DNA of 64,000 nucleotides. It comes from Edaphochlamys debaryana. Lineage: Eukaryota; Chlorophyta; Chlorophyceae; Chlamydomonadales. A model generated the notes under the pieces. The model searched no databases. It worked only from the letters and a program-made list of their open reading frames with translations, and was not told where the DNA came from. The first letter of the stretch is position 1, and the number at the start of each line of letters is the position of its first letter. This document shows, one piece after another, positions 5,028 through 43,394 of this stretch. The translations under genes were made by a program, and so were the position numbers. The stretch is taken from positions 124,001 to 188,000 of the forward strand of contig JAEHOE010000061.1 of the NCBI GenBank assembly GCA_016858145.1. The letters run 5' to 3'.

Positions 5028-7067
5028 CTACACGTTGACGCCCGCCTGCTCGGCGCGTCGGCGCACATCCGCCCAAGCCAGCAGCATGATCTGCGCACGG
5101 CCACCCGCGTTGAGTTGCAGCGCCTTCTCGTACTTGCCGCGTGTATCCGCGAAGACGATCACGTCTGTGTTTGCGGACACGCTTGTCCTGACCACGCCGC
5201 TAACAGCCGCAATCTCGACCTCCAGAGCTTTGCTGCGCACACCCGTGAAGACGACGCTGCGCCCGTTGCCGAGAGTCGTCCGCAGCCAGGACGTCCAGGC
5301 CCCATCCGCGGTGCCCTCCCGGAGGGACCGTCGGCCCTGTCCGCAGGAAAGACCCTGAGTGTCTAGGAACGTGCGGAAGGAGGTCAGGCCCGCCAGGAAG
5401 CCCTCCGCTGTCTTGGCCTGCACGCCTGGCAGGGCGAGCAGCTGCTCCAGGGTCACCTCCATGGCCGCATCAGGCGTCCGGCCCGTACGCCCGAGCCCTG
5501 CCAAGATGGCTTCTATCTTGCGCTTGCCGAAGCCCGCACCAAAGGCGTTGCTGGCGCTCATGAGATCCACGCAGCTCACCGCCGCCACTGCGCTGCGGAC
5601 GGCGTGACTCGTGGACGCCGCCTTGCTCGACTCAAACCCGGGGATCTCTCGGAGCGCCGCGGGCGTCGCGTCCAGCACCGCACGCACCGTCGTGTAGCCC
5701 ACGTTGAACAGGCGCTCGACGGTCTTGTCGGAGACGCCCTTGGCGCCCAGCGTCTTGAAGAAGTATGAGAGCTGCCGCAGGAGGACGTCCCGGCTCTCGT
5801 GCCCAGCAAGCAGCACGGCATCCTTGTGCGTTTTCCCCCACTCCCAGCGCTGCGCGGGCATCTGCGGTCCTGCAGGCGCGGGCCGGACGACGCAGAGTAT
5901 GTAGGGGATGACGTCGCCGCTGCGCGTGACCTCGATGACGGCGCCCGGGCCGACCAGGAACTTGAAGATGAACTCGGCGTTGTGGCCCGTGGCGCGTCGT
6001 ATGGTGACGCCTCCTAGGCTCACCGGCTCGAAAACGATGGTGGGCTTGAGCAGCCCGTCCTTGCTCGCATTCCACTCAACGTGCTCGACGCTGACCTGCG
6101 CGGCGGTCTGAGCGCTGGCGCTCTTGAAGGCAAACGCATAGGACGGGTTCTTGCCCGGCTCTTGCGCTTGCCCGCCTGCGTCGTGCTCCACGACGATGCC
6201 GTCTACCTCAAACGGAGACTCTTCTTTGCGGCTCAAGAGAAGTTGGAGGAGCTGGTCCGCAGCCTTCTCTCTCAGGCTTGTTGACGTCATGGACCACACG
6301 GTCGTGAAGCCCATGGTGCGCAGCTGCTTGAGCTGAGCGCTCTTGGCCATGCCCGCGGGCATGACCAGTTCGTACGCTACGAAACGGGTAACCGCGGCGG
6401 TGTCCGGGTCGGGGGTCTTGCTGTTCACAATGCCAGACACGGCGTTGCGCGCGTTGGCCATGCGCCCCGAGAGCCCCCCCTGGAAGTCATCTCGGGTGAT
6501 GATGAGCTCGCCCCGGACAGCCGTGCCCGTGACTAGGGACTTCTTGTTGAGGCCAAGAGGCACAATTCGAGGCAGCAGGAAACTGATATCCTGCCCCTCG
6601 CGCCCGTCACCGCGGCTGTACATCCGCAGCGAGCCGTCGGCCTGGACGACCAGGAGAGCTGACACGCCGTCGAGTTTGTCGCTGACGACGACGGGGCCGG
6701 CGTGCTTCCGTCGCCAGGACGCCAGGGCCTTCGCGTCCTTGACCTTATCCAGGCTGCCCATCCAGTGCGGCAGGTGGACCTTGCGACTCCTAGTCACCGG
6801 CGCGCCCACTCGAGTCTGACCTGACCCTTCGGCTTCCAGGAGGTCCCGCAGCGTGTCGTATGCGGCGTCGCTGAGGAGCGGCGTGCCGCTGTTGTAGTAG
6901 GCGAGGTCGGCCTCCTTCATGAGTGCGCGCATGCGCTTCTCCGCAGCGTCCCTGCGCTGGTAAGCACTGCGGAGTTCCTGGAAGAAGCGCGTGGGGTCCC
7001 GCTCGATTCGCGCTGCTAGCTTGGCGAGGCTTGCGCGGAACGGGGCGGGCGCGGCCATGTCGTTCAT
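5028..7067 (-). CDS. ligA: NAD-dependent DNA ligase
   Basis: A 679-aa ligase that would seal nicked duplex DNA using NAD+ as the AMP donor. The N-terminal Ia-like segment has Y-Y-N-S-G-T-P-L-L-S-D-A-A-Y-D. The adenylation motif K-L-D-G is at K131 (SDKLDGVSALL), followed by YSRGDGREGQDIS. An OB-fold region, helix-hairpin-helix segments (GVSDKTVERLFNVG, LPGVQAKTAEGFLAG) and a C-terminal BRCT-like region (RSVVFTGVRSKALEVEI) are visible. The four-Cys zinc finger found between OB and HhH domains in bacterial LigA is not evident: the expected interval holds no Cys cluster. Length is normal for the family. NAD-ligases occur in bacteria and some large DNA viruses and are not the nuclear ligase of algae, which supports viral ancestry for this block. 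Confidence 0.92.
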   Translation of the reverse strand: MNDMAAPAPFRASLAKLAARIERDPTRFFQELRSAYQRRDAAEKRMRALMKEADLAYYNSGTPLLSDAAYDTLRDLLEAEGSGQTRVGAPVTRSRKVHLPHWMGSLDKVKDAKALASWRRKHAGPVVVSDKLDGVSALLVVQADGSLRMYSRGDGREGQDISFLLPRIVPLGLNKKSLVTGTAVRGELIITRDDFQGGLSGRMANARNAVSGIVNSKTPDPDTAAVTRFVAYELVMPAGMAKSAQLKQLRTMGFTTVWSMTSTSLREKAADQLLQLLLSRKEESPFEVDGIVVEHDAGGQAQEPGKNPSYAFAFKSASAQTAAQVSVEHVEWNASKDGLLKPTIVFEPVSLGGVTIRRATGHNAEFIFKFLVGPGAVIEVTRSGDVIPYILCVVRPAPAGPQMPAQRWEWGKTHKDAVLLAGHESRDVLLRQLSYFFKTLGAKGVSDKTVERLFNVGYTTVRAVLDATPAALREIPGFESSKAASTSHAVRSAVAAVSCVDLMSASNAFGAGFGKRKIEAILAGLGRTGRTPDAAMEVTLEQLLALPGVQAKTAEGFLAGLTSFRTFLDTQGLSCGQGRRSLREGTADGAWTSWLRTTLGNGRSVVFTGVRSKALEVEIAAVSGVVRTSVSANTDVIVFADTRGKYEKALQLNAGGRAQIMLLAWADVRRRAEQAGVNV

Positions 7068-13003: not shown

Positions 13004-13005
13004 TA

Positions 13006-13141
13006 CAGTGCCGTCGGGTAATGAATCGAACGGGTACCCCCAGACCGCTCATCACCGTCCAGCGTTTCCGTCAGGTACCATATTGCTGGGGTCTAACTAT
13101 CCTAAACCCCGGTTTACTCGCTACCATCGGGCGTAATCACA
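13006..13141 (-). ncRNA. Candidate Fanzor guide (omega) RNA region, copy A1
   Basis: This is the interval between the Fanzor stop codon and the element terminus, where Fanzor/TnpB guide RNA scaffolds lie in known systems. It is almost identical to 29133-29268 and shares most of its length with 43262-43392. On the minus strand an 8-bp hairpin can form from GGGGTTTA and TAGACCCC with a 7-base loop, and a GGTACC pair brackets the next 45 bases. Function is inferred from position and conservation only. Confidence 0.5.
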
Positions 13142-14425
13142 TCAATGTGCGAGCTCCCCAACGCCATCCTCCTCCTCCCCGCGCTCCTGCGGAACCGCTC
13201 GAGCCCTGCGCGTCTGCTTCCGCAGGTGCGTAGGCCTCTCTTCCTCGCCTCGCAGGAGCGCCTCCAGCACCAGGAGCAGGTTCTTGGTGGCGTTGATGTC
13301 GCGGTTGAAGACCCTGGATGTGTGCTCCTGGGTGCGTCGACCACGCACCACGCACAACTTCAGCGTCTCCAACTCCCTCCCCTTGTTGCCCCTTACGCCC
13401 AAGAGCTCCACCCCCTCTTCCTGGGGGTGGTGAACCACCTCGCTCGGCCTCGTGCGCAAGAGCTTACACCACGTGTCCACGCCCTCGCCACCCAGATGCT
13501 CGTGGCAGCCACGGCACTCCTTCAGCCCCCGCAGAGCTCGGCCGTGGTCGTCCTTGATGTCCTGCAGCACGTTGCCGCACCGGTGACACGTGGCGGTGGA
13601 ACGCGTCTCATCCAGCGGCTGTACGCGGCTCTTGGGGTGCCGTGTCTTCAGCGAGCCGAGCGCCTTGCACGCCGCCTTGCCCATAGCCTTGGTCGGCACG
13701 GACACTTCGCCGCGGCCAGTCGCGGCAAAGCCGGCGTCACCACGGCCCAAGACCACTGCCGCGCCCTTGAGCGCATACTTGCGGATGAGGTCGGCGTAGT
13801 ACTGCGCCATCACCCCCTGTCGCCGCCGCCACAGCAGCATCTTCCAGCGCGCGTACCAAGGATCGTACACGTGCTCTTCCGCCAGGATGTCTTGGACCAC
13901 CGCCAGCCGCCGCAGCATCGCCTGGAAGTCGCGAGGGTTGCAAGTGCGCCTGGCCTCACCGCCGCCGCCCAGGTGGCTAATGCCCAAGCGCAGCAGCTGG
14001 TCTTGCCGGCGGTGAAGCTTCACCTCCTCTCCGTGTCGTGTCTGGAGCGACCGCCGCAGGTAGGACGCACGCGTCAGGCGCTCCTGGTGCTCCTCCGCGG
14101 GTGCGTGTGGCGAGTCCAGCGGCGGGCACTTGACCAGCGCCTGCGACAGGTTGACGCGCCCTGGGTCCCTGGAGGAGCAGGGGGCGTGAACGACACAGGG
14201 TCTACCGCGCATGGAGTAACCGTAGATGGGCAGCGTTTTCTCCGAAAAGTAAGACTCATCAATGGAAACAAGAGGTGATCCAGCGGTGAACGCTTGCTGA
14301 AGGCTTTGCAGGAAAGCGGTCTCGCGCGCATGCTGTACGGGTGGGTCAACCAGCCTGGCCAGGCGCTTTGACGTGCGCTTCTTGGAGACCCCGAGCTGCT
14401 TCAGCATGGTGCGGACATAATCCAT
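13142..14425 (-). pseudogene. Transposase-Fanzor fusion ORF (deletion chimera)
   Basis: A single 427-codon open frame. Residues 1-85 are the IS630/Tc1-type transposase up to just past its first catalytic Asp (D56 in SIDESYFSEK). From residue 86 it is the C-terminal half of a Fanzor nuclease: RuvC-I-like DPGRVNLSQ (D87), a central helical region, VVLGRGDAGF at the RuvC-II position where the usual Glu is replaced, the alternative Glu in DETRSTATC, two CxxC zinc pairs (CHRC, CRGC) and RuvC-III FNRDINATKNLL (D376). Copy A2 shows the two genes are normally separate, so the fusion arose by internal deletion. It lacks transposase residues two and three of the DDE triad and the Fanzor N-terminal guide-binding half, so neither enzyme should work. 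Confidence 0.85.
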
Positions 14426-14452
14426 GTCGGCGGGAACATTGAACCGAGCGTC

Positions 14453-15613
14453 GTGAGCTCCTTCGACCTGGGGAGCGCGGTGAGCCCGATGCGCGGGGTC
14501 TTCACGGATACGTTGACCGCCGGGAGCTACGCCCTAGCCGCTGGCGGCGCGCTGCTGCTGGACTCCTTCACGTCCTCGAGCGCCTCCAACGCCGCCACGG
14601 CGGCCGCGTTATCGAACGTCTACAACAGCAGCCTCCGCCTGACCGGCGGCTCCGTCGACGGGAGCGTCACGGTCACGGGTACCTTGACAGCCGGAAGCCT
14701 GACCGCAGGGAGCTACGCGCTTGCCATGGGCGGGTCGCTGCTGCTGGACTCCTTCGCGTCTTCGAGCGCATCCAACGCCGCCACCGCGGCCGCGCTCTCC
14801 AATGCCTACGGCAGCAGCCTCCGCACCAGCGGGGGCATGGTCGCCGGCAACCTATCGGTCGCCGGCAACTTCACGGTGACGGGAACGACGACGACGCTCA
14901 ACACGCAGGAGCTCACGGTTGCGGACAACATCATTGTCCTCAACCAGGGCTTCTCGAACGCGACGCCGCCGACCACGTTCCTGAGCGGCATTTGCGTGAA
15001 CCGCGGCACGGAGTCAAACTATTACTTCATGCTCGAGGAGGCCAGCCAGTATTTCAAGGTCAGCACCAGCAACGCGCTCCAGGCCGTGTGCACCCGGGAT
15101 GACAACTTGTCCGCTGGCTTTCCGTACTTCGACCCAGCGACAAAGAAGCTCGTCAGCCGCTCGCTGAGCAACAGCGACGTCGTAGATGCGCCGTGGCTCT
15201 TCGCCACCAGCAACAACGGACTCAAGAACACGTATTTTACAACGAACAGCAACGGGCCCTTCACGGGCATCGGCACCAGCAACCCGGACTACAAGCTCAC
15301 GGTCAACGGGCAGATTTACACGTCAGACGACATCGTTGCCTTCTCGGACAGGCGCCTGAAGACGGACCTTGTCGTCATCCCGGACGCGCTGGACAAGGTC
15401 CGGCAGTTGAGCGGCTACACGTTCACCAAGGTCGGGTCCACCCGCGTGACTGCTGGCCTGGTCGCCCAAGAAGTCCAGGCCGTGCTCCCCGAGGTCGTCT
15501 ACCAAAACGAGCAGGGCTACCTCAGCATCGCATACGGCAACGTGGTTGCGCTGCTAGTCGAGGCTGTGAAGGCGCTCGACGCGCGCGTGGCCACCCTCCT
15601 GCCCGCAGCCTGA
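14453..15613 (+). CDS. Fibre-like protein with S74 intramolecular-chaperone domain
   Basis: A 386-aa protein. The N-terminal part has two near-identical repeats ([18 protein letters not shown]...[15 protein letters not shown]) followed by beta-rich sequence ([15 protein letters not shown]) typical of trimeric fibre shafts. The C-terminal 90 residues form a peptidase S74 domain: [10 protein letters not shown] with candidate Ser298/Lys303 dyad, then [15 protein letters not shown] and [19 protein letters not shown]. In phages and large viruses this domain trimerises the fibre and cuts itself off. The start at 14453 follows the truncated transposon copy A1 by 28 bases, so its promoter may have been replaced. 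A strong marker of viral origin. Confidence 0.88.
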
Positions 15614-27115: not shown

Positions 27116-27853
27116 CCGGCCTCGTCGGACCACCCGAGATTCTTGAGGATCGTACACGTGCTCCTCCGCCAAGACGTCCTGGACCACCGCCAGCCGCCGA
27201 AGCATCTCCTGGAAGTGGCGAGGGTGTCTTGTGTAGAGCGCTACAGACTGCGGAGTAGGCAGCCACCGATGACGCATGAAACAGGCCCTGGTGTTGGAGT
27301 CAGGTAGCGCGTCTGCTTAGGGTGCAGAGAGACGTGCGGTAGGCCTGCTCTATACACGAAGAAGACGGGAAACAAATGGATGCTGAGGTGTCTCAGAATT
27401 CATTTGATCGAGTGTACAAGTACGCCAGGACACGCCGCCCCCGCCCCCGCCCAGGTGGCTAATGCCCAGGCGCAGCAGCTGGTCTTGCCGGCGGCGAAGC
27501 TTCACCTCCTCTCCGTGTCGTGTCTGGAGCGACCGCCGCAGGTAGGACGCTCGCGTCAAGCGCTCCTGGTACTCTTCCGCGGGTGCGTGTGGCGAGTCCA
27601 GCGGCGGGCACGTGACCAGCGCCTGCGACAGGTTGACACGCCCTGGGTCCTCCGCCATCTTCGCCAGCGCGCGGTGCTCCTCCGGTGACAGCGACGCCAG
27701 GAAGCGGCGTAGCTACTCCGCCTGGCTGATGGCCTCCAGCTCACTGCGTTTGGCTCGCGACATCAGCAGCTTCACCTCAAGGACGACGCACAGCGCCACG
27801 CCATCCGTCATCACCGAGCGGCACCGCGGCTCCTGGGCATCGTCCGGCCAGCT
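27116..27853 (-). pseudogene. Fanzor-A fragment in duplication unit 1
   Basis: The minus strand carries pieces of the same Fanzor as A2: the SELEAISQAE-stop-LRRFLASL segment, RuvC-I-like EDPGRVNLSQALV, the following helical region to LGISHLGGGG, and further away FQEMLRRLAVVQDVLAEEHVYDP. Pieces between are deleted or replaced. The in-frame TAG just before RuvC-I is at the same place as in A2. Confidence 0.8.
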
Positions 27854-28176
27854 GCCATTTGAGTTGACAGCGCGCACCCTGATCCAGGTACCCGTTTTCA
27901 GAATTTCAGCTGCCGCCACGCCGCCTCCAGACAACATCATTTCAGAATGCAATACCCACTGACTTGAATGCGATACCCACTTACAGCGTGTTTCAAATTT
28001 ATATCCGGACACTTTGAATTCGTCTCGAAATGGCAACTAAGCGCGTCTACGGGGCGTCTACGGTAACCCGCTGCCTCAAAATGTACTTTCGTTTGCAAAG
28101 TCTACGGAAGGTCTCCAGTCTCCTCGGCGTCCCCAAGTCAACAGTTCACGACTGGGTAAAGCGCCTGGGTAATGTC

Positions 28177-29092
28177 CCGGCCTCGTCGGACCACCCGAGA
28201 TTCTTGAGGATCGTACACGTGCTCCTCCGCCAAGACGTCCTGGACCACCGCCAGCCGCCGAAGCATCTCCTGGAAGTGGCGAGGGTGTCTTGTGTAGAGC
28301 GCTACAGACTGCGGAGTAGGCAGCCACCGATGACGCATGAAACAGGCCCTGGTGTTGGAGTCAGGTAGCGCGTCTGCTTAGGGTGCAGAGAGACGTGCGG
28401 TAGGCCTGCTCTATACACGAAGAAGACGGGAAACAAATGGATGCTGAGGTGTCTCAGAATTCATTTGATCGAGTGTACAAGTACGCCAGGACACGCCGCC
28501 CCCGCCCCCGCCCAGGTGGCTAATGCCCAGGCGCAGCAGCTGGTCTTGCCGGCGGCGAAGCTTCACCTCCTCTCCGTGTCGTGTCTGGAGCGACCGCCGC
28601 AGGTAGGACGCTCGCGTCAAGCGCTCCTGGTACTCTTCCGCGGGTGCGTGTGGCGAGTCCAGCGGCGGGCACGTGACCAGCGCCTGCGACAGGTTGACAC
28701 GCCCTGGGTCCTCCGCCATCTTCGCCAGCGCGCGGTGCTCCTCCGGTGACAGCGACGCCAGGAAGCGGCGTAGCTACTCCGCCTGGCTGATGGCCTCCAG
28801 CTCACTGCGTTTGGCTCGCGACATCAGCAGCTTCACCTCAAGGACGACGCACAGCGCCACGCCATCCGTCATCACCGAGCGGCACCGCGGCTCCTGGGCA
28901 TCGTCCGGCCAGCTGCCTGCACCGCAGCGACTCTTCTGCTTCCGGCCGCTGCTGCCCGTCGCGACGGCCTGCCCGTGTTGCAAGCGAGCGGCCTTGTTCG
29001 CGTCGAGCCATGCGCTGCGGTGTGCTCCGAATGCCCAGGCCAGCAACGAGACGCCCACAGCTGCCGCGGGGCGCTCCTCATACGAGGCGGGG
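28177..29092 (-). pseudogene. Fanzor-A fragment in duplication unit 2 and flank
   Basis: Same content as the unit 1 fragment but extending further upstream in the Fanzor frame (LLAWAFGAHRSAWLDANK, then QKSRCGAG-like segment), up to about 29092. Ends 40 bases before the terminus of element A2, so two Fanzor copies abut here. Confidence 0.8.
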
Positions 29093-29132
29093 GTGGGGAG
29101 GAACCAGTGCACGCGCCTGGCACGGCGGCTTA

Positions 29133-29268
29133 CAGTGCTGTCGGGTAATGAATCGAACGGGTACCCCCAGACCGCTCATCACCGTCCAGCGTTTCCGTCA
29201 GGTACCAAGTTGCTGGGGTCTAACTATCCTAAACCCCGGTTTACTCGCTACCATCGGGCGTAATCACA
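29133..29268 (-). ncRNA. Candidate Fanzor guide (omega) RNA region, copy A2
   Basis: Between the Fanzor stop and the left terminus of A2. Differs from the A1 copy by only about three bases over 136, a level of conservation higher than needed for a terminal repeat alone. Same predicted hairpin (GGGGTTTA / TAGACCCC on the minus strand). Confidence 0.5.
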
Positions 29269-31709
29269 TCAATGTGCGAGCTCCCCAACGCCATCCTCCT
29301 CCTCCCCGCGCTCCTGCGGAACCGCTCGAGCCCTGCGCGTCTGCTTCCGCAGGTGCGTAGGCCTCTCTTCCTCGCCTCGCAGGAGCGCCTCCAGCACCAG
29401 GAGCAGGTTCTTGGTGGCGTTGATGTCGCGGTTGAAGACCCTGGATGTGTGCTCCTGGGTGCGTCGACCACGCACCACGCACAACTTCAGCGTCTCCAAC
29501 TCCCTCCCCTTGTTGCCCCTTACGCCCAAGAGCTCCACCCCCTCTTCCTGGGGGTGGTGAACCACCTCGCTCGGCCTCGTGCGCAAGAGCTTACACCACG
29601 TGTCCACTCCCTCGCCACCCAGATGCTTGTGGCAGCCACGGCACTCCTTCAGCCCCCGCAGAGCTCGGCCGTGGTCGTCCTTGATGTCCTGCAGCACGTT
29701 GCCGCACCGGTGACACGTGGCGGTGGAACGCGTCTCATCCAGCGGCTGCACGCGGCTCTTGGGGTGCCGCGTCTTCAGCGAGCCGAGCGCCTTTCACGCC
29801 GCCTTGCCCATAGCCTTGGTCGGCACGGACACTTCGCCGCGGCCAGTCGCGGCGAAGCCGGCGTCACCACGGCCCAAGACCACTGCCGCGCCCTTGAGCG
29901 CGTACTTGCGGATGAGGTCGGCGTGGTACTGCGCCATCACCCCCTGTCGCTGCCGCCACAGCAGCATCTTCCAGCGCGCGCACCAAGGATCGTACACGTG
30001 CTCTTCCGCCAGGATGTCTTGGACCACCGCCAGCCGCCACAGCATCGCCTGGAAGTCGCGAGGGTTGCAAGTGCGCCTGGCCTCGCCGCCGCCGCCCAGG
30101 TGGCTAATGCCCAAGCGCAGCAGCTGGTCTTGCCGGCGGTGAAGCTTCACCTCCTCTCCGTGTCGTGTCTGGAGCGACCGCCGCAGGTAGGACGCACGCG
30201 TCAGGCGCTCCTGGTGCTCCTCCGCGGGTGCGTGTGGCGAGTCCAGAAGCGGGCACTTGACCAGCGCCTGCGACAGGTTGACGCGCCCTGGGTCCTCCGC
30301 CATTTTGACCAGCGAGCGGTGTTCCTCCGGTGACAGCGACGCCAGGAAGCGGCGCAACTGCTACACCTGGCTGATGGCCTGCAGCTCCCGGAGTTTGGCT
30401 CGCGACATCAGCAGCTTCACCTCAAGGACGACGCACAGCGCCACGCCATCCGTCATCACCGAGCGGCACCGCGGCTCCTGGGCGTCGTCCGGCGAGCTGC
30501 CTGCACCGCAGCGACTCTTCTGCTTCTGGCCGCCGCTGCCCGTCGCGACGGCCTGCCCGTGTTGCGAGCGAGCGGCCTTGTTCGCGGCGAGCCATGCGCT
30601 GCGGTGTGCTCCGAATGCCCAGGCCAGCAACGGGACACCCGCAGCTGCCGCGGGGCGCTCCTCATACGAGGAGCCACCGATGCACAGCGCCAGCAGCTCC
30701 TTGAGGACCCGCTCGTCGATGTACGCAAACGTGCGCGACGTCTTGATGATGGGGCAGGCGCTCCAGGCGTGGTCGCCACGCGCCGCGCCTCGGCCTCGAG
30801 GGACAACTCCATGTGCAGCTTGAACACTCTCGGCGTCAGCTTCAAGCGGTCCATACGCGCACTGCCTGTCAGCCCGCAGCACCAGCGCAGCTCGGCCACC
30901 AGCGCTGCCAAGGCGGGTGGGAGCCTCATGCTGGGCGTGGCCCCGGCGTTGAGGGCGGTGTATGCGTTGCTGGCGAAGCAGGCTGCGTCACCAGGATACG
31001 TCACAACGTTACGGCCCGTCCGCGCGTCCTTGCGCGTGTACCCTCCCATGTCGGCGAAGCGACGCTGGAATAGCCGCGTCACTCGAGCGGTCAAGTGCGT
31101 CGTCACGTGCGCGGTCAGCACGCCCTCATACTCCCGGGCCATGTCGGTGAGCACCTGGTCCCACCTCATGAAGCGCAGGTCGTCCAGAGTTGGGTAGAGC
31201 GGCTCCAGCAGCGGCAGATTCGCCTGCCACACGTGCGCCAGCTCGGGGTGGGGCGGGCTCGCGGCCTCACGGATGGACACGCCCGGCATCGGCAACGACG
31301 CCTTGAAGGGCATCATGCAGTACTTGAGGAACGTGGTGTCCTTGAACGTCTGGTCCAGGAAGCTTGGCTGGTCGAAGAGGCCGGCCTGGAAGGCGTGCTG
31401 CGCGAAGAGGTTGGCCACCTTGGAGCCCGCGGCGCGCACCAGCGACGCCGCGGTGACGTAGCGCTCGATGGCGTCCAGGAAGACGGGGTCCTTGACCATG
31501 GTCCGTAGGTAGCGCTTGCGGACGATGTTCTCTTTCTCATCCGTCCGGTCGTACTCCAGGTCGGTGACGAGGTTGGCGCGGCGGGCTTGCTCCAGCAACT
31601 CCTGGCGCGTGTAATTTCGGCCATCCTCTAGACAGGCCTCGGGCGTGTTGCTCGCCTGGAGCCGTTTGACCAGGATCTCCTTGGAGAGTACTCCAAGCTT
31701 TGGAGGCAT
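29269..31709 (-). pseudogene. Fanzor-type RNA-guided nuclease (TnpB relative), near full length, broken as read
   Basis: Starts at 31709 (MPPKLGVLSKEILVKRLQ) and spans about 813 codons, the usual size of Fanzor1 proteins. The N-terminal 340 codons are helical and contain LTPRVFKLHMELS. Then SRTFAYIDERVLKELLAL, RuvC-I DPGRVNLSQ, VVLGRGDAGF at the RuvC-II site (Glu replaced), alternative Glu in DETRSTATC about 47 residues later, zinc pairs CHRC and CRGC, and RuvC-III NRDINATKNLL. The replaced RuvC-II Glu with a downstream substitute is a known Fanzor hallmark. Lesions as read: a frameshift near 30770, TAG at about 30361 and TGA at about 29796 (TGC in copy A1). The likely role is guide-RNA-directed DNA cleavage at the donor site after transposition. 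Confidence 0.87.
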
Positions 31710-31749
31710 GCCATCCTATGGGGTACTCAAGCAGTAGCTTTGGCGGCTT

Positions 31750-32731
31750 TTATGTGGGATATATCATTGCGCGTCCTGACTTCTTCAGAAGACCCCAGAA
31801 GACTACAGAAGCCTGTCGAGAAGGTGGCGGAAGCTGCCCCGCACATGGCCTGCAGGAAGCTGCCTTACCGCGGCCTGGACGCATGCGTCGAGCCCCCCTG
31901 GCCACGGCCAAGACGCGCACGCGGAAGGCGTGCTTGACCCAAGCAAACACATTTTCGATGGGGTTGAACTCGGGGCTGTATGGAGGTGTGAATAGGGGGG
32001 TGTACCCCTTCTCGTGGAAAGCTGATTGACAAGCGCCTCCACGGTGGATGCTAGCGTTGTCCAGAAGAAGCGTGGCCCCAGGCGGGTACGGCAATGCTAA
32101 GATGAAATTGCAGAACACCTGGCGGTTGACAGGACCACGAACAAGCTCCGATGTGCTTGTGCCGTCAGCTCCCACAGCCATGAGGAGAGAGCGGTGTTTC
32201 CAGGAGGAGCAGGGGGAGTGAACGACACAGGGTCTACCGCGCATGGAGTAACCGTAGATGGGCAGCGTTTTTTCCGAAAAGTAAGACTCATCAATGGAAA
32301 CAAGAGGTGATCCAGCGGTGAACGCTTGCTGAAGGCTTTGCAGGAAAGCGGTCTCGCGCGCATGCTGTACGGGTGGGTCAACCGGCCTGGCCAGGCGCTT
32401 TGACGTGCGCTTCCTGGAGACCCCGAGCTGCTTCAGCATGGTGCGGACATAATCCATGCCAACCCGCAGTGACAAGGAGTCCTGAAGGTGTTGCCGCATC
32501 TCCAGGGGTGGTCACAGGGTTTGCACACAGAAACGACCGGAGGACCTGCAGGGCTCGCTCGCACTTGCGAACGGGCCGCCCTTTTGGTTTGGTCAACCCA
32601 TGGGCAACACCTCGAGTAGCCCAGCGATGCAGGGTGCTCGTGCTAATTTTACTGAACCTTGCGGCCTTCCGAAAACTGCCAATCCTCCACAGGTACGCCA
32701 CGGCGAGCCTCCAAAACTCGATGGAGTACAT
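31750..32731 (-). pseudogene. IS630/Tc1-type DD34E transposase of element A2 (one frameshift)
   Basis: Starts at 32731 (MYSIEFWRLAVAYLWRIG) with an N-terminal HTH (SFRKAARFSKISTSTLHRW) and a GRP-like linker (KPKGRPVRKCER). The frame shifts near 32500 (CCACCCC in place of CAACCCTTT as in the 43-kb copy), then continues LQDSLSL into the catalytic domain: first Asp in SIDESYF, second in LLLDNASIHRG, and Glu in SPEFNPIENVFAWVK with 34 residues between, i.e. DD34E. Cut-and-paste transposition into TA is expected. The C-terminus runs on in Arg/Pro-rich sequence to 31750 and may be rearranged. Confidence 0.85.
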
Positions 32732-32904
32732 TGCACCATACTCTCTGTTTCGATTCATTATCAAACCGCACTGTAGGCGCATGGCTCCCCAGTTCCACGG
32801 CGCGAGCCTCGTGGCTACTACTACCCCAACCCGCGACTGACTGCACTTTGCAAGTCTCATCTCATCTGCGCGTCTGAAGGCTATAGCACGCACAAGTGTC
32901 CGCG

Positions 32905-42271: not shown

Positions 42272-42964
42272 GTGATGTTACTATCTTCAGCCCTCATGGT
42301 CTTGATGGCCTTGTTGGCCTTGTTGGCTTTGTTGTACGTCCTGTACATCATCATGTTCTACATGATTCATTGGATGGCAACCGCCAGTAGCCCCAAGCAC
42401 ATATTGGAGTCTCTGCAACCCGGTGACGTTGTCTTCGTGGCGTCGCCGGGGTCGTCGCTGTACGCAGTGCTCTTGTCCGTCATGGCCGGCACCGTCTTTT
42501 ACCACGTGTTTGTTGTGGCACGTGTTGGCCAGCACCCCGTCTTCCTCCACTTTGTGGAGCCCGAGTATGAGTGCTTCTATCAGCCGACGTATCTGTGCGA
42601 AACCGGAGACCTGTGCATGAGCCATGCACCGAGCCTCATGGAAAGGTATTCGCTGGGTTCAACGTTCAAGGTCTTCCGCACGGGTCTTGATAACGACAGG
42701 GTCCTCGCGGCAGCAGTGGACGTCACCTGCGGCCGCCGGTATAACTCGGCGCACATCAAGACTTACATCGCGTCGTCTTTGCGTTGGCACGAGACGGATG
42801 ACATGCATTGCAACACGTTTGTCGGCCTGTGGCTCGAGCGTCTGGGCGCCGTGCCTGTGTCGGCCACTCCCAGCAGCACGTATGTCCCCTCGAGGCTCCA
42901 GCGAATCCTGGCGTCCAGCGGGCTGCCGAGTGACCTGTACCGGTGCTACAGTGAGGGTCGGTAA
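42272..42964 (+). CDS. Membrane-anchored permuted NlpC/P60-like (YiiX/G6-type) protein
   Basis: A hydrophobic N-terminal anchor (LMVLMALLALLALLYVLYIIMFYMI) precedes a papain-like region: LQPGDVVFVASPGSSLY, a His in TVFYHVFVVARV, and a late Cys in DMHCNTFVGLWLERLGAVPVS. A His before and Cys after, with CNxFV near the end, is the circularly permuted order of the YiiX/poxvirus G6-type NlpC/P60 families, which act on lipids or amide bonds. The 3' end has been altered by insertion of the 448-bp element at 42947: the last five or six codons and the stop lie inside the transposon terminus. Confidence 0.5.
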   Translation: MMLLSSALMVLMALLALLALLYVLYIIMFYMIHWMATASSPKHILESLQPGDVVFVASPGSSLYAVLLSVMAGTVFYHVFVVARVGQHPVFLHFVEPEYECFYQPTYLCETGDLCMSHAPSLMERYSLGSTFKVFRTGLDNDRVLAAAVDVTCGRRYNSAHIKTYIASSLRWHETDDMHCNTFVGLWLERLGAVPVSATPSSTYVPSRLQRILASSGLPSDLYRCYSEGR

Positions 42965-43394
42965 CGAATCGAAACAGAGAGTATGGTGTCTTTCACGATG
43001 TACTCCATCGAGTTCAGGAGGCTCGCCGTGGCGTACCTGCGGAGGGTTGGCAGTTTCCGGAAGGCCGCAAGGTTCTGTAAGATCAGCACGAGCACCTTGC
43101 ATCGCTGGGCTACTCGAGGTGTTGCTCATGGGTTGACCAAACCAAATGGGCGGCCCGTCCGCAAGTGCGAGCGAGCCCTGCAGGTCCTCAGTTCGTTTCT
43201 GTGTGCAAACCCTGTGACAACCCTTTGGGAGATGAGGCAACACCTTCAGGACTCCTTGTCATTGACATTGATGTGGTTACGCCTGATGGTAGCGAGAAGA
43301 CCGGGTTTAGGACTTCGCGGTACCTGACGGAAACGCTAGACGGTGATGAGCGGGCTGGGGGTACCCGTTCGATTCATTACCCGACGGCACTGTA
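42947..43394 (+). mobile_element. 448-bp deletion derivative (MITE-like) of the IS630-Fanzor element
   Basis: Begins TA-CAGTGAGGGTCGGTAACG and ends GTTCGATTCATTACCCGACGGCACTGTA-like (last bases CACTG-TA at 43390-43394). The left 310 bases match the 5' part of the A transposase, reading MYSIEFRRLAVAYLRRVG to LQDSLSL in one uninterrupted frame; the right 134 bases match the candidate guide-RNA region. Everything between is deleted. It has both ends and could be moved in trans. Confidence 0.85.
43262..43392 (+). ncRNA. Candidate guide (omega) RNA region retained in the 448-bp element
   Basis: Starts at ATTGACATTGATGTGGTTAC and runs to the terminus. It matches 13006-13141 and 29133-29268 (reverse strand) except for loss of about 20 bases in the hairpin region. 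Retention of this segment with the nuclease gone suggests it is needed for mobility, as terminal DNA, guide RNA, or both. Confidence 0.4.

Follow-up and report, generated by a model that had tools for sequence, protein, structure and literature searches.

The window analysed here, a stretch of 64,000 nucleotides, corresponds to positions 124001-188000 of a 703,050-base contig of the green alga Edaphochlamys debaryana. At 29131..32775, with the coding strand on the minus strand and the TA included at both ends, it holds a Tc1/IS630-type transposon, now decayed, that carries a Fanzor1 gene. On the minus strand, the transposase comes first and is followed by the Fanzor and then by the end facing 29131. 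In the searched genome of this alga (141.9 Mb, 502 contigs), the insertion sites of this family and of a second one share a C before the TA on the transposase side, a one-sided motif that may be a trace of Fanzor activity.

Structure and decay of the element

Repeat and end-pattern comparison placed the terminal inverted repeats at 29131..29157 on the Fanzor 3' side, where the repeat starts TACAGTGCTGTCGGG, and at 32749..32775 on the transposase side. The inverted termini 29128-29157 and 32749-32778 form 30-nt arms with 83% complementarity, TACAGTG...CACTGTA. TA stands at the start and the end of all six two-ended sites compared, which is a hallmark of IS630/Tc1-mariner elements; a search for the TA duplication via an empty site found none fully empty among the six sites queried. 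The catalytic part of the transposase (31753..32499, minus strand), identified by its open reading frame (ORF) translation and Pfam, matches DDE_3 with 87.1 bits (cut-off 28.6, E 1.3e-24), and 34 residues separate its second D from the E when counted on the translation, giving the arrangement D..D-34-E (DD34E). The presumed N-terminal part (32381..32775, minus strand, within the ORF 32378-32893) appears to be helix-turn-helix-like, HTH_23 matching it only with an E of 0.056. The two parts lie in different frames; therefore, the transposase of the window copy is decayed.

The alignment of the Fanzor to intact relatives spans 31709 to 29299 in two frames that join near 30780-30783. The first frame (30783..31709, minus strand) covers the N-terminal part with the REC region and is 60% identical to residues 1-307 of the relative P0002, while the second (29299..30780, minus strand) contains two stops. 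The TDG of the WED domain, named as a characteristic Fanzor motif (PMC10711439), lies in the piece 30364-30882, and the DPG of RuvC-I in the piece 29797-30357; both motifs are present in all six relatives compared (P0002-P0007). The piece 29272-29751 contains the alternative catalytic E, the C4 zinc site and the NRD. This E stands six residues ahead of the first CxxC (ETRSTATCHRC in the window) and is kept in five of the six relatives, the remaining one, P0006 (606 residues), ending before that point. Both CxxC are present, and the RuvC-III RD that follows the zinc site (NRD.NA..N) reads NRDINATKN. The best match of an alignment-profile search of solved structures was a Fanzor1 (PpFz1), and the top seven structure matches of the predicted fold of a relative were all Fanzors.

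Some results weigh against the Fanzor assignment. Besides its Fanzor1 match, the first profile search returned three ribosomal proteins (E 0.089 to 0.2), and the nuclease half of the predicted model has poor prediction quality. In the window piece, the Pfam domain Cas12f1-like_TNB reached 20.2 bits, under the cut-off of 26.3, and only two of the six relatives matched it at all (P0002 with 14.4 bits); this domain was used as a supporting feature and is not a defining Fanzor1 feature in the available text of the papers cited here. Single-sequence PDB searches with the window piece, with pieces of the duplicate copy L002 and with the Fanzor of the second family (best E 0.55) gave nothing convincing, and alignment profiles alone matched.

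An intact Fanzor gene in the window, considered as a candidate, was rejected on account of the frame change and the two stops. Since the Fanzor is split over two frames with two stops and the transposase over two frames, the window copy as a whole is decayed. An earlier note on this sequence had proposed a bounded element with paired termini at a TA, a DD34E transposase and a near full-length Fanzor with RuvC motifs and zinc pairs behind it on the same strand. Its boundaries, 29131..32775, are exact to the base when the TA is counted, the termini, transposase and gene order agree with our analysis, and the identification as an IS630/Tc1 element with a Fanzor is upheld by evidence from domains, motifs, profiles and the fold, including the profile search and the structure prediction (run on a relative) that the note had suggested. 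Repeat-bounded copies, on which the note had made its proposal depend, occur elsewhere in the genome with the same ends. Thus, the transposon-Fanzor unit is real and the motifs are present, but the Fanzor is not a readable gene (frame change near 30780-30783) and the window copy does not itself make up a functional unit.

Copies, relatives and the flank motif

A DNA search of the genome with the element gave 32 matches, on contigs C61, C11 and C191, and an end-pattern search found 25 ends confined to the same contigs (3 of 502, about 2.5 of 142 Mb). Three other full-length copies (L002, L003 and L004; C61:26523-53561) all go back to a single insertion that was multiplied by segmental duplication; they are nearly identical, and two of them stand in tandem. 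Over 6620 bases no difference separates L002 from L004, and L003 has the same insertion and flanks; because of this identity and common setting the three represent one site and are not independent, and they are taken together as site B. In these copies, the Fanzor is spread over two frames that overlap, and it has NSD where the window copy has NRD. The other matches of the DNA search are shorter, deleted or truncated pieces.

The window itself contains several relatives of the element. A deletion derivative at 13004..14426 (minus strand) carries the uninterrupted 427-residue ORF 13145-14425, in which the transposase front, up to the first catalytic D, is fused in frame to the entire RuvC part of the Fanzor (with DPG, the alternative E and NRD; Cas12f1-like_TNB 24.1 bits). 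This ORF begins where the element is truncated, and a divergently oriented S74 peptidase ORF lies 63 bases away. A short non-autonomous derivative that has kept both ends lies at 42947..43394 on the plus strand, opposite in orientation to the main copy. In addition, alignment to relatives revealed two tandem older Fanzor fragments, at 28207..29087 and 27146..27856 (both minus strand), which directly adjoin the left end of the element (27146-29087).

The derivative 13004-14426 allowed codon comparisons, from which five gapped codons were excluded. It differs from the window copy by six silent and six non-silent changes and one stop, and from the site-B copy by 13 silent and 11 non-silent changes. 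The two comparisons have five silent differences in common; when these are counted once, 17 of 31 changes are non-silent, against 74.5% expected (p 0.014). A pooled estimate of 17/36 (p 4e-4) was dropped, as it counted the five silent differences twice. Selection for the protein is thus supported in part, and the codon changes lend modest support to the suggestion that selection acted on the nuclease as the family spread.

Based on a DDE_3 search, 20 places in the genome carry this transposase domain, and ten of them were examined: four on C61, two on C115, C10:809008, one on C163, C261:48123 and C11:708786. A second family is represented by a 3501-base element with its own ends at C115:134851-138351 (L085:352-3852), in which neither the transposase frame (319 residues) nor the Fanzor frame (754 residues) is interrupted. 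Its transposase shares about 40% identity with that of the window over 147 residues, and its Fanzor has Cas12f1-like_TNB at 28.5 bits, above the cut-off, and DKG in place of DPG at RuvC-I. The copies at C115:130490 and C10:809008 break off ahead of the Fanzor; in total, 17 ends of this family were found, on C10 and C115. A third Fanzor lineage (C163:171358-173553, minus strand; L103/L104) lies behind an IS630 transposase on the same strand and has kept TDG and DPG, with a changed zinc site whose cysteines are apparently lost. On C261, a Fanzor-like fragment of 71 residues (36% identity, E 3e-7) lies behind a transposase and shares its strand. The ends of the C163 and C261 families were looked for and not found. 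Because the second family and two more transposase lineages of this genome have a Fanzor or a Fanzor-like fragment behind them, the element belongs to a known kind; with several Fanzor lineages, each behind a transposase of this type, the genome offers a built-in comparison.

Independent insertion sites were counted only from element ends located by the DNA search and the end-pattern search, and the base preceding the TA was read at each site looking inward from the flank. For the first family, one left and one right end were kept for site B, whose duplicates had given three left and four right ends; 11 left and 9 right ends then remained of the 25, and L019, which the end pattern had missed, is the tenth right site. 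On the transposase side, C precedes the TA at all ten independent sites, and the next position is also C in seven of them; on the Fanzor side, the base is C at 4 of 11 sites, T at five and A at two. In the window, C precedes 26.4% of 2378 TA on both strands; against this background the binomial p is 1.6e-6, and the comparison of the two sides gives p 0.0039. In the window copy, the CTA lies at 32774..32776 (minus strand). The expectation for the second family was noted while its flanks were being fetched, one of the six flanks being already known. All 17 of its ends were counted, with sides assigned from the end sequences: GC-TA occurs at 6 of 6 transposase-side ends, and C at 5 of 11 Fanzor-side ends (p 0.043). 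For both families pooled, C stands at 16/16 ends on the transposase side and 9/22 on the Fanzor side (p 1e-4), and label shuffles over the last two flank bases gave 0.0012 and 0.0005. The contrast between sides weakens on stricter counting: without the left end L044, which may repeat the site-D insertion on a paralogous stretch, the first family stands at 10/10 versus 4/10 (p 0.011), and without the copy known first, the second family stands at 5/5 versus 5/11 (p 0.093).

The position of the constant C is the one expected of a Fanzor target-adjacent motif (TAM). If the guide is the flank past the guide-RNA end and the TAM lies across the target, the TAM must be the last transposase-side flank bases plus the TA; in an excised site (transposase-side flank, TA, Fanzor-side flank), the C sits exactly there. 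A paralogue of the left flank of site B, L069 (C11:701910-702011), matches it over ~1.5 kb at 93% and carries no element. The match ends at the TA, and the other flank is unrelated. Since the 24 bases beside the TA are the same as at site B and the opposite base gives C-TA, this stretch would be a matching target for the site-B copy. We infer that the motif is the fossil record of the Fanzor TAM, which in the window copy would lie at the CTA mentioned above; the main rival is a lopsided preference of the transposase.

At the Fanzor end, RNA folding points to a candidate guide-RNA scaffold at 29131..29275 (minus strand) that ends in the terminal repeat; the flank that would act as guide, 29111..29130 (minus strand), is placed by the position and length known from other Fanzor1 elements (PMC10711439). 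In the window copy, these last 145 bases fold with -54.5 kcal/mol (z -3.48; none of 200 shuffled sequences reached so low a value), compared to z -0.64 for the opposite strand and 0.71 for the other element end. The last 64 bases form a hairpin with the terminal repeat as its 3' arm, with z of -3.35 in the window, -3.36 in L037 and 0.27 in L050. Other data speak against a scaffold: five other copies fold less well over 131-145 nt (z -2.46, -1.44, -1.26, -0.89 and +1.14); the second family has z 0.07 for the 145 bases of its Fanzor end, against -1.37 and -1.69 for the two strands of the transposase end, and comes to -2.03 only in the last 64 bases, for which the opposite strand has -1.35 and the transposase end -1.48; and a search for covariation found both sides changed in 0 of 25 consensus pairs. 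Rfam at gathering scores gave no match at the element. The guide-RNA segment suggested in the earlier note is therefore partly supported, by a structured RNA at the Fanzor end of the window copy that is weaker in most other copies and without covariation; a guide-RNA scaffold at this end is plausible.

Probable viral surroundings and proposed role of the Fanzor

The window also contains an NAD-dependent DNA ligase gene (5031-7067, minus strand), here in algal nuclear DNA, and the S74 (endosialidase chaperone) peptidase ORF already mentioned (14489-15610, plus strand). Two of the homologues of the ligase were named as viral metagenome sequences among the 120 listed of 2702, and over 98% of its query length the ligase is 100% identical to an annotated E. 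debaryana protein. Ligase matches in the genome fall on C61, C10 and C97, and further S74 matches comprise two on C10 and one on C11 near another insertion (C11:647000, with the end at C11:643568); on C10, S74 and ligase matches share a stretch with ends of the second family. Profiles of the major capsid protein and VLTF3 gave 0 matches in the genome, and their controls gave no match either, while seven single-protein scans of viral contigs, which reach close relatives only, found no relatives of the queried proteins. The earlier note's description of virus-associated DNA is thus indirectly supported by the ligase, the peptidase and the clustering of the ends, but not by capsid or VLTF3 matches or by viral-contig relatives. 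The surroundings of the element are probably of viral origin in part.

Taken as a whole, the observations are quite likely best explained by a decayed Tc1/IS630 Fanzor1 transposon whose ancestors kept their sites through cutting by the Fanzor, with C-TA as the TAM. In working ancestors, the transposase would have excised the element and inserted it at a TA. A transcript of the Fanzor end would have folded as a scaffold, with the terminal repeat as its 3' arm, and continued into the flank as guide. The Fanzor with this RNA would then have cut the empty site, recognizing the transposase-side flank plus TA, here C-TA, and repair from an occupied copy would have restored the element at the cut site. 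Sites without the TAM would have lost their copies, leaving the one-sided C-TA of today. The broader proposition, that insertion sites of Fanzor transposons record the TAM of each Fanzor and that copies persist only with the motif, so that (C)C-TA and GC-TA are two such records, has in our view an even chance of being right.

The same motif could arise without any role of the Fanzor if the transposase inserted its unlike ends in a fixed orientation to CTA, a possibility that we rate somewhat short of even. Short derivatives without most of the Fanzor (sites D, E, F and others), presumably mobilised by the same transposase, also have C-TA, and the element ends differ at positions 8-15, by which the orientation could be sensed. 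However, the known target choice of Tc1/mariner transposases is symmetric about the TA; the motif stands on the same side in two families with transposases as divergent as described above; and a Fanzor acting in trans would also serve derivatives that keep the guide-RNA end. A Fanzor-free Tc1 family was sought as a control, but at both candidate loci, C163 and C261, the transposase is followed by a Fanzor or a Fanzor-like sequence, which leaves the TAM explanation the weaker for it. It is very improbable that the Fanzor is a passenger with another role that does not help the element to persist: Bao and Jurka (2013; PMC3627910) once put forward a methyltransferase role on the strength of genes swapped between Mariner elements, but Fanzors were later established as RNA-guided nucleases (PMC10432273), and the RuvC residues are retained here.

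Two further alternatives concern the setting and the decay of the element. An ordinary host transposon family with no special link to viral DNA would account for the missing capsid, VLTF3 and viral-contig matches, the capsid and VLTF3 controls being likewise silent; it is rather unlikely in view of the 25 ends on 3 of 502 contigs, the ligase and peptidase in the window, and the 17 second-family ends on C10 and C115, with S74 and ligase matches in the C10 stretch. The broken frames might also be assembly errors or introns in an intact window copy, and indel errors can occur in long-read assemblies. The assembly of E. debaryana used additional sequencing for error correction (PMC8226300). This explanation is nevertheless improbable: two of the Fanzor lesions are stops within one frame, an aligned relative crosses that stretch in a single frame, and at one of these stops a close copy encodes an amino acid.

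Comparison with known Fanzor systems

The type of element is already known, and the flank motif is the part deserving work. Mariner elements with Fanzor1 have been on record since 2013, for example PGv-1 and PUl-1, which likewise combine a Mariner-type transposase and Fanzor1 with terminal inverted repeats, TA target duplications and links to algal viruses; PGv-1 differs in having an additional GIY-YIG endonuclease gene, and the available text of that account contains no one-sided flank motif (PMC3627910). The same source assigned the Fanzors CRe-1, 2 and 3 of C. reinhardtii to Helitrons. No mention of a one-sided flank or of this element was found in the titles and abstracts of the papers retrieved, in a literature search that covered few subscription journals. 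In 2026, an account appeared of a Fanzor-bearing element that occurs only in endogenous giant viruses (PMC13236599). This Ectocarpus element resembles ours in pairing a transposase with a Fanzor, there restricted to endogenous viral DNA, and differs in its IS4 transposase, its 8-nt target duplication and its brown algal host (PMC13236599, PMC3627910).

The Fanzors with solved structures, SpuFz1, PpFz1 and GtFz1 (8gkh, 9cf0 and 9cer), resemble the Fanzor of the element in motifs (PpFz1) and fold, with 12-14% identity to the predicted fold of the relative over the aligned fold. The measured TAM of SpuFz1 is CATA, with TA at its end (PMC10432273); it thus shares the final TA with the C-TA proposed here and is otherwise different.

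Should the motifs prove to be TAMs, the natural insertion sites would supply evidence at the population level that a Fanzor protects vacated sites, as TnpB does in bacteria, and the action of Fanzors in nature at the empty donor site would be demonstrated. With two lineages and two distinct records, the TAMs of uncultured Fanzors would then be readable from genome sequence, which would make for cheap prediction. The bacterial parallel is found in IS200/IS605 elements, which are not known to have terminal inverted repeats. These elements are prokaryotic and use a peel-and-paste transposase, unlike the element described here; their TnpB is linked to retention and gene drive, and their likeness to our element as interpreted above lies in a flank that serves as guide and in a TnpB TAM that equals the preferred insertion motif of the partner transposase (PMC11870625).

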